DNA of 41,275 nucleotides. Origin: Candidatus Latescibacterota bacterium. Its GTDB lineage: Bacteria; Latescibacterota; UBA2968. Shown in pieces: positions 34,492 to 36,296 of this stretch. The stretch is taken from NCBI GenBank assembly GCA_022823725.1, contig JAJEHL010000028.1, forward strand, positions 1-41,275, written 5' to 3'. The notes under the pieces are model-generated. The model was not told where the DNA came from. It searched no databases and saw nothing but the letters and a program-made list of their open reading frames with translations. Made by a program: the position numbers and the translations under genes. The stretch's first letter is position 1. Each line of letters starts with the position of its first letter.

Positions 34492-34584
34492 CTGGAAGAT
34501 GCGTTGGATTATAACGGCAATCCGGGTATTGTGGTGTTGTTGACGGGTGATGGCGCGGGTTATCTCGAAGGTGCTGGTTTTCAC
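34492..34584 (+). pseudogene. NYN-domain protein remnant, 5' part
   Basis: An open segment of 31 codons reads LEDALDYNGNPGIVVLLTGD then GAGYLEGAGFH, a form I recognise from NYN/LabA-like PIN-type ribonuclease domains. There is an in-frame TAG immediately upstream (34489-34491), and the first 70 or so residues of the domain are missing. The frame stops at the IS left end at 34584 and resumes at 35904. The remnant starts 5 bases after the ThDP enzyme stop, so its 5' half was probably lost in a rearrangement. Confidence 0.75.
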
Positions 34585-34603
34585 CCAAACAGCGCGTGAA
34601 GCC

Positions 34604-34669
34604 CACTCGCAGAGAGCTTCAGCGTTGGGTCGCATAGGCGGAGGGCTTAGATTTTGGTCTCTGCGAGTG
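34604..34669 (+). repeat. 12-bp inverted repeat in the IS left end
   Basis: CACTCGCAGAGA (34604-34615) and TCTCTGCGAGTG (34658-34669) are perfect reverse complements separated by 42 bases, within the left end of the IS and upstream of tnpB. It could be part of the folded left end or a transcript hairpin. Confidence 0.8.
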
Positions 34670-34721
34670 CTTGAGCATTTTGAGCCTTGACAACACCCGT
34701 TACCCTGACTATTCATTCAAT

Positions 34722-35816
34722 ATGAAACTCACACTTCAAATACAGTTGCTACCAGATACTGGCACAGCACAGAAGTTAAAAGCCACTATTGAGTGGTTCA
34801 ACGAAGCCGCCAACTGGCTTGCACAGAAAGCCTTTGAGCGTAAACTGTCAAACAAGTTTGCACTACAAAAGCTGTATTATTCAAAGTTGCGCAACCTGTT
34901 TGGGCTGTCTGCACAAATGGCTATTCGCTGCATTGCCCAGGCAGTAGAGGCATATAAGCGTGATAAGTCTGTGCAACCTTCGTTTCGCCCAACTGCTGCT
35001 GTGCCCTATGACCAGCGTCTGTATAGCTTTAAGGGCATAGACCGCGTATCTTTGCTGACGCTGGAAGGGCGTGTGCTTGTGCCAATGATTATGGGCGATT
35101 ACCAGCGCGAACAGTTCGGCTATGCCAAAGGGCAAGCCGACCTTGTGCTTCGCAAAGACGGTAAGTGGTTCTTGCTGGTCTGTGTCGATATTCCTGATGG
35201 CACGCCCATACCTGTTACAGACTTCATCGGTGTTGACTTGGGCACTGCCAACCTTGCTGTGACAGACGACGGCGAGACCTTCTCCGGCAACACGGTTGAA
35301 AACATCCGCCAGAAGATGAGCAACCTGAGAAAGTCGCTCCAGCAGAAAGCATCCAAACTTGCCAGGCAAGGCAAGAGACCAAAGAATGTTCGTAGAAAAC
35401 TCTCCCTACGCTCTGGCAAAGAGAGTAGATTTCGTAGAAACACCAACCATATCATATCCAAACGCATTGTTGAGAAGGCTAAAGACACTGGCAAAGCGAT
35501 TGCCCTTGAAAACCTCGACGGCATACGCAAAAACCAGAAAAAACGGTTTCGCAAGCCTCAACGTGCTAAACTGTCTGGGTGGTCTTTCTTTCAACTTCGC
35601 ACCTTCATCGAATACAAAGCCAAGCGTGCTGGTATCCACGTAGAACCTGTTGACCCCAAATATACCAGCCAGGCGTGTGCCGAATGCGGACATTGTGAGA
35701 AATCCAATAGACAAACTCAGGCATCTTTCCTGTGCAAAGTGTGTGGTCATAAAGACCATGCTGACCGCAACGCTGCTCGGAATATCCGAGCAAAGGCTTT
35801 GTGTCAACAAGCCTAA
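34722..35816 (+). CDS. tnpB: RNA-guided nuclease TnpB
   Basis: A 364-residue TnpB, the IS-borne ancestor of Cas12 nucleases. The start is M18 of the longer frame (MKLTLQIQLLPDTG, typical N-terminus). RuvC residues are intact: Asp172 in GVDLGTANLAV, Glu263 in IALENLDGI and Asp348 in DHADRNAARNI. A zinc-finger set CAECG ... CKVCG lies at about 319-341. The N-terminal part has the helical WED/REC-like region and the middle is Lys/Arg rich. It is full length and no frameshift is visible, so it may be active although the host element lacks tnpA. Confidence 0.95.
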   Translation: MKLTLQIQLLPDTGTAQKLKATIEWFNEAANWLAQKAFERKLSNKFALQKLYYSKLRNLFGLSAQMAIRCIAQAVEAYKRDKSVQPSFRPTAAVPYDQRLYSFKGIDRVSLLTLEGRVLVPMIMGDYQREQFGYAKGQADLVLRKDGKWFLLVCVDIPDGTPIPVTDFIGVDLGTANLAVTDDGETFSGNTVENIRQKMSNLRKSLQQKASKLARQGKRPKNVRRKLSLRSGKESRFRRNTNHIISKRIVEKAKDTGKAIALENLDGIRKNQKKRFRKPQRAKLSGWSFFQLRTFIEYKAKRAGIHVEPVDPKYTSQACAECGHCEKSNRQTQASFLCKVCGHKDHADRNAARNIRAKALCQQA

Positions 35817-35903
35817 AGTCTCGCCGTGCCCCAATGGTGGTTCAGCCAGCGGGGCGTGACGCGGTAGGGACAAGCCCACAGGATTTAGCCCTGGGTGGTT
35901 GAC
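35700..35903 (+). ncRNA. Putative omega RNA region (tnpB 3' end to right end)
   Basis: In this family the guide scaffold overlaps the 3' end of tnpB and runs to the right end, and the guide is taken from the flanking DNA. Here the guide would begin with AGTACATTGGAGCG at 35904. The location is inferred from family knowledge. The 5' border is a guess, and no covariance search was possible. Confidence 0.4.
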
Positions 35904-36131
35904 AGTACATTGGAGCGCTTGCACAAGTGAGGTTGGCGGGTGGAAATTCTTTCTTGGGCGCATTCCTGTAATCAGCGGATGCGAAGGTGGGCACGAGAAA
36001 ACGGTGTGTTTGTCGCGTTAGACGACTTCTACGAGGCCATTACGTTCATGGAGCCGTCCAGACCAGGGGCTGAACTTGCGTCTCCACGCGATTCCGCGGA
36101 ACTGGACTTGTCGAAAAGGTCAATGGCTTGA
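35904..36131 (+). pseudogene. NYN-domain protein remnant, 3' part
   Basis: Continuing in the frame of the 5' part, it reads STLERLHK, then an in-frame TGA (35928-35930), then GWRVEILSWAHSCNQRMRRW and ARENGVFVALDDFYEAITFM. This is the C-terminal half of the same NYN/LabA-like domain. The TGA sits where relatives have a residue between K and GW (a CGA to TGA change would explain it). It ends at TGA 36129-36131. The gene therefore carries a 5' truncation, an IS insertion and a nonsense codon. Confidence 0.75.
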
Positions 36132-36140
36132 TTGGGAAAT

Positions 36141-36296
36141 TTATTCACGGTAAATTGCCGATTTGTAGTGAATGGATAGGTTAAGATGGATTCTATTCAC
36201 GGTAAATCGTCAAATTCCCGTGAATAGACAGGTAAAAATGGGTTCTATTCACGGTATATTGTCAAATTTTAGTGAATTGATAGGTCAAAATGGGTG
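36141..36296 (+). repeat. Three 52-bp tandem repeats with internal palindromes
   Basis: Units start at 36141, 36193 and 36245. In the second unit TCTATTCACGG (36192-36202) pairs perfectly with CCGTGAATAGA (36218-36228). Units 1 and 3 keep an ATTCAC/GTGAAT core. Each unit ends with an AGG-TNAAAATGG-like segment, and the ATG of the third copy is the start of the gene at 36290. Confidence 0.85.

Follow-up and report, generated by a model that had tools for sequence, protein, structure and literature searches.

The window, the whole 41,275-nt stretch of DNA analyzed here, makes up one contig in the 5.3-Mb genome of a Candidatus Latescibacterota bacterium. A 1,319-bp element at positions 34585–35903 carries tnpB, lacks tnpA among its open reading frames, and is flanked by two remnants of an NYN-domain gene. 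The features of the locus are as follows.

34492–34584, + strand: left remnant of the NYN-domain gene, whose 5′ part is deleted; 97% amino acid identity to intact NYN orthologues.
34581–34584, + strand: left cleavage and target motif (CL), TCAC inside TTTTCAC, in host DNA, and predicted target-adjacent motif (TAM) of TnpB; TCAC or TCAT is found at 14 insertion junctions.
34585–35903, + strand: TnpB-only element assigned to IS200/IS605; empty site in four congeners, further copies.
34598–34601, + strand: left guide (GL), GAAG, directly 5′ of the left hairpin; pairing to TCAC under the rule seen in IS608 (N1-g2, N2-g1, N4-g4), covariation test.
34602–34629, + strand: imperfect left-end hairpin, CCCACTCGCAGAGAGCTTCAGCGTTGGG; sequence, with 94–100% matches across the genus.
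34722–35816, + strand: tnpB, 364 aa, homologue of RNA-guided nucleases; Pfam, similarity to solved structures, alignment, dN/dS.
35805–35903, + strand: right end, predicted to supply the 3′ scaffold of an omega (right-end) RNA; alignment of 14 copies, folding.
35871–35874, + strand: right guide (GR), CAAG, 5′ of the right hairpin (35875–35898); sampled right ends, distant relatives.
35899–35903, + strand: right cleavage site (CR), (T)TGAC, the final bases of the element; TTGAC in 16 of 17 right ends.
35904–35923, + strand: predicted TnpB guide within host NYN sequence, AGTACATTGGAGCGCTTGCA; right flank, read by the known TnpB mechanism (PMC8612924), and empty-allele comparison.
35904–36131, + strand: right NYN remnant, with TGA at 35928–35930; 99% amino acid identity over the aligned part.

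A first-pass annotation, made from the window alone, had proposed an insertion into an NYN gene and had suggested looking for relatives in which that gene is uninterrupted. Such orthologues are present in four congeners (G002, G003, G004, and G007), where the junction reads TTTCAC|AGTAC; the intact gene of G004 matches the NYN family PF01936 above the curated cut-off (E = 1.2e-8). The empty sites in these four genomes bear out the earlier reading that no target sequence was duplicated. They also fix both ends of the element apart from a 2-nt ambiguity in placement from sequence alone, which arises because AC is common to the left flank (TTCAC) and the right end (TTGAC). Comparison of occupied and empty alleles thus shows the insertion of a unit with fixed ends, 3′ of TTCAC in an NYN-domain gene and without duplication. 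Among the congeners searched, the insertion was found in the window genome alone.

The same annotation held that removing 34585–35903 restores a continuous NYN reading frame, which proved true only locally. Joining 34584 to 35904 places GAGFH and STLERLHK in phase, but TGA follows immediately after LHK, eight codons past the junction, at a position where the relatives carry CGC (Arg). Moreover, the distance from the upstream gene to the first matching NYN codon is 439–531 bp in the relatives whereas there is none in the window, and the missing ∼0.44–0.53 kb includes the NYN start. Because it combines the insertion, the stop codon at 35928, and the 5′ deletion relative to the whole genes of congeners, the window NYN gene is, judged by its sequence, a multiply damaged pseudogene with at least three lesions.

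Two minor features of this neighborhood deserve mention. The NYN orthologue of G005 (L063, G005:C49) contains one extra G, 2–3 nt past the insertion point of the element, which shifts its frame; an origin as an excision or cleavage scar was considered but set aside, since TnpB cuts 15–21 bp from the TAM (PMC8612924) and little weight can be placed on one base of a draft assembly. Just downstream of the right remnant, positions 36139–36293 of the window hold short repeated stretches in near copies (attcacggtaaattg...tagtgaat.gataggt), for which an Rfam search returned chance-level matches only.

The genome contains four further full copies, 81–86% identical to the window copy in DNA, so the latter is not a fresh duplicate within this genome. 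The element type and both ends proposed in the first-pass annotation hold against these four copies, against copies in sister species, and against the orthologous empty sites. Empty sites were sought across the genus with the flanks alone as queries, and 14 insertions, including the window copy, could be compared in this way, extending the earlier suggestion that other copies be examined for their ends and left-flank motif. All 14 follow TCAC (10 insertions) or TCAT (four). Six are known from right ends only, mostly at contig ends, and their motif was unseen beforehand. The TTCAC-like motif first proposed is right in substance; the part in common is the tetranucleotide, and the fifth base varies, the left flanks of complete main-group copies reading TTCAC, ATCAC, GTCAC, or CTCAC.

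Individually, the empty alleles of C51, C49, L030, and L032 carry TCAC ahead of the right flank, and those of the right-end-only copies L034, L036, L041, L042, and L048 do so in all or some cases; for L048, TCAC is found in two of four empty alleles, the remaining two having TTAT and TTAC. TCAT is present in the empty allele of the right-end-only copy L047 and in those of C25, L031, and C16, which are members of a subgroup with this motif. Initial boundaries for the last three (TTTTAC, ATTTTC) were rejected once the empty alleles placed their ends after TCAT. Copy L039 was left out, as host similarity continues beyond its presumed left boundary. At L032 (G003:C63) and C25 (L021), relatives have the left and right flanks separated by ∼1.06 kb and ∼7 kb, and TCAC or TCAT stands before each flank; these gaps probably reflect a deletion between two insertions or an adjacent deletion made by the transposase.

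In IS608, guide tetranucleotides 5′ of the end hairpins pair with the cleavage sites, TTAC with AAAG on the left and TCAA with GAAT on the right (PMC5934647), and these published pairs obey the rule N1-g2, N2-g1, N4-g4. Applied here, the rule pairs a left guide GAAG or GATG with TCAC, and the right guide CAAG with TGAC. The right end is nearly constant: TTGAC terminates 16 of 17 copies and TTGGC one, and CAAG occurs in every sampled right end except that of L049 (TAAG). A second TnpB family in the genus, with proteins of 377–379 aa and right ends combining TCAC with GAAG, provides further variation on the left, where its targets shift with the guide (TTAT with AAAA or AACA, TTAC with AAAG, TTAA with AAGT); empty alleles back these targets for L044, L046, L050, L051, and L053. 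Across 17 left ends from the two TnpB families and distant relatives, 48 of 51 tested pairs are Watson–Crick. None of 200,000 shuffles paired as well, a figure somewhat inflated by relatedness, as left ends that belong to the same lineage depend in part on one another. The exceptions are C25 (TCAT with GAAC), which deviates at position 4 only, and L031 and L050, which need G-T pairs; C16, with an ambiguous left hairpin, was excluded. The left hairpin of the window element is 94–100% identical to end hairpins of the second family, and this identity suggests that end modules have been exchanged between the two.

Taken together, these observations favor, with a probability of about 0.9, a non-autonomous, TnpB-only IS200/IS605 element of the IS1341 type, which entered the NYN-domain gene as a unit, 3′ of TTCAC, using GAAG and CAAG guide pairing and a Y1 TnpA acting in trans. 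The tested defining features of the IS1341-type group are all found here at the level of sequence. A single Y1 TnpA was found in the genome, in an IS605-type element on C37 with its own tnpB (L023, G000:C37); at the right end of that element, the hairpin stands between GAAT on its 5′ side and TCAA on the other, a combination also seen in IS608. According to the model, such a transposase would excise the element as a single-stranded circle, and insertion would proceed through pairing between GAAG, the left guide, and the TCAC target, while CAAG pairs with TGAC at the right end. Of the 11 genomes in the genus, five, G007 among them, yielded no TnpA. Near-identical right ends of this element type nevertheless lie at four contig ends in G007 (C15, C73, C175, and C260), each at a different site, which suggests that these copies moved recently without an evident transposase. 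This gap in G007, and the fact that the TnpA of the window genome belongs to another element, speak against the model.

Alternatively, the locus could be a domesticated or immobile tnpB that interrupts NYN by chance, with ends of historical significance and a TnpB employed otherwise, for example, in regulation or defense. The lack of an adjacent tnpA is compatible with this idea, as is the divergence of the five genome copies, none of which is a recent duplicate there. It is at odds, however, with the presence of the NYN insertion in this genome but in none of the congeners searched, with the several near-identical right ends at different sites in G007, and with the intact RuvC residues and purifying selection in all five copies, and we consider it improbable. 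Membership in the IS607 group, in which a serine recombinase inserts elements between short matching dinucleotides, is least credible of all: many TnpB-only elements are not assignable from TnpB alone, but insertion 3′ of a fixed tetranucleotide, subterminal hairpins, and guide–cleavage-site pairing at both ends are the anatomy of IS200/IS605 (PMC5934647).

The protein encoded by the IS200/IS605 element contains the Pfam domains Cas12f1-like_TNB and OrfB_IS605 and resembles solved TnpB and Cas12f proteins in sequence. The three RuvC acids and the zinc-finger cysteines noted in the first-pass annotation stand up to comparison: D172, E263, and D348 and cysteines 319, 322, 338, and 341 (CxxC...CxxC) do not vary among the genome's five copies. 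Ratios of dN/dS among these tnpB copies are 0.08–0.15, indicating purifying selection, as expected for a protein that is kept functional. The right end is conserved in an alignment of 14 copies and is structured, positions 35700–35923 folding at −90.7 kcal/mol (z = −4.33 against shuffles). No Rfam family matched the right end at E values up to 1, the only two hits being chance-level microRNA matches outside the element.

By analogy with IS200/IS605 biology (PMC8612924), the omega RNA would take its guide from the right flank, here reading AGTACATTGGAGCG.... With this guide, TnpB would cleave a chromosome whose site is still empty, reading TTCAC followed by AGTACATTGG, but not one whose site is occupied and has TTGAC in front of the same guide sequence. 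Since these contexts differ by one base, sparing of the element would rest on that base. It is plausible that the guide would direct TnpB to cut the NYN site when empty, because the catalytic and zinc-binding residues are kept and the copies are under purifying selection. Compared with the 20-nt guide, the empty alleles are mismatched at position 16 in G004, 6 and 16 in G003, 6, 7, and 16 in G002, and 15 and 16 in G007; in the viral contigs, no sequence is identical to guide positions 1–18. In a Sulfolobus study, a TnpB with the TAM TTTAA left DNA uncut beside the right-end motif of its own element (PMC11043419), a result that fits the idea of one-base sparing yet warns against assuming that the TAM equals the target motif.

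More generally, TnpB elements within one genus may have switched their target motif naturally (TCAC, TCAT, TTAT, TTAC, and TTAA) through changes in the left guide. Closely related TnpBs, 77–85% identical within the second family, would then have to follow with a matching TAM and rely on a single base to distinguish an empty site (TTCAC) from an occupied one (TTGAC). We advance this proposal tentatively, giving it somewhat less than an even chance. If true, the motif-switching set is a natural series for the coevolution of TnpA target choice and TnpB TAM recognition. The natural variation in two TnpB families supplies ready pairs for testing how transposase target and nuclease TAM are matched, and the same pairs bear on how TnpB avoids cutting the locus that encodes it.

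The element is of an unremarkable type; its value lies in the empty sites of sister genomes, which establish as fact what had been predicted of its ends and target motif. It shares with IS1341-type members of IS200/IS605 a lone tnpB between subterminal hairpins and insertion 3′ of a short motif without duplication, and there is no categorical difference from them; what sets this lineage apart is its TCAC/TCAT target together with the form of its left-end hairpin. IS608 of Helicobacter pylori follows the same pairing pattern (TTAC/AAAG and TCAA/GAAT there, TCAC/GAAG and TGAC/CAAG here) but has its own tnpA and another target. ISDra2 TnpB of Deinococcus radiodurans is likewise a RuvC and zinc-finger protein, with a guide from the right flank and a TAM equal to the target motif (PMC8612924), both of which are predictions here; it differs in its TAM, TTGAT, and in belonging to an element with tnpA, and the window TnpB aligns with it by sequence over residues 155–361 only. 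Relatives occur in hosts from other phyla: elements of Tepidiphilus succinatimandens, Tepidimonas charontis, and an Anaerolineae metagenome-assembled genome (MAG) encode TnpBs with 64–66% amino acid identity and have GAAG as left guide and a CAAG...TTGAC right end, with a TTCAC left flank in two of the three (Tepidiphilus and the Anaerolineae MAG). A literature search for Latescibacter and TnpB together found nothing.

A single-hairpin form of the window's element type was sought and none was found. For the second TnpB family, sixteen single-hairpin mini elements (L213–L228, in G000, G001, G002, G004, G006, G008, and G009) with cores of 40–48 nt join its outer left end to its outer right end, and may be solo remnants of recombination between the two end hairpins. 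Their 5′ flanks, TTAT, TTAC, or TTAA, match their own left guides, and for one of them, L218, G006 carries the corresponding empty allele (L167).
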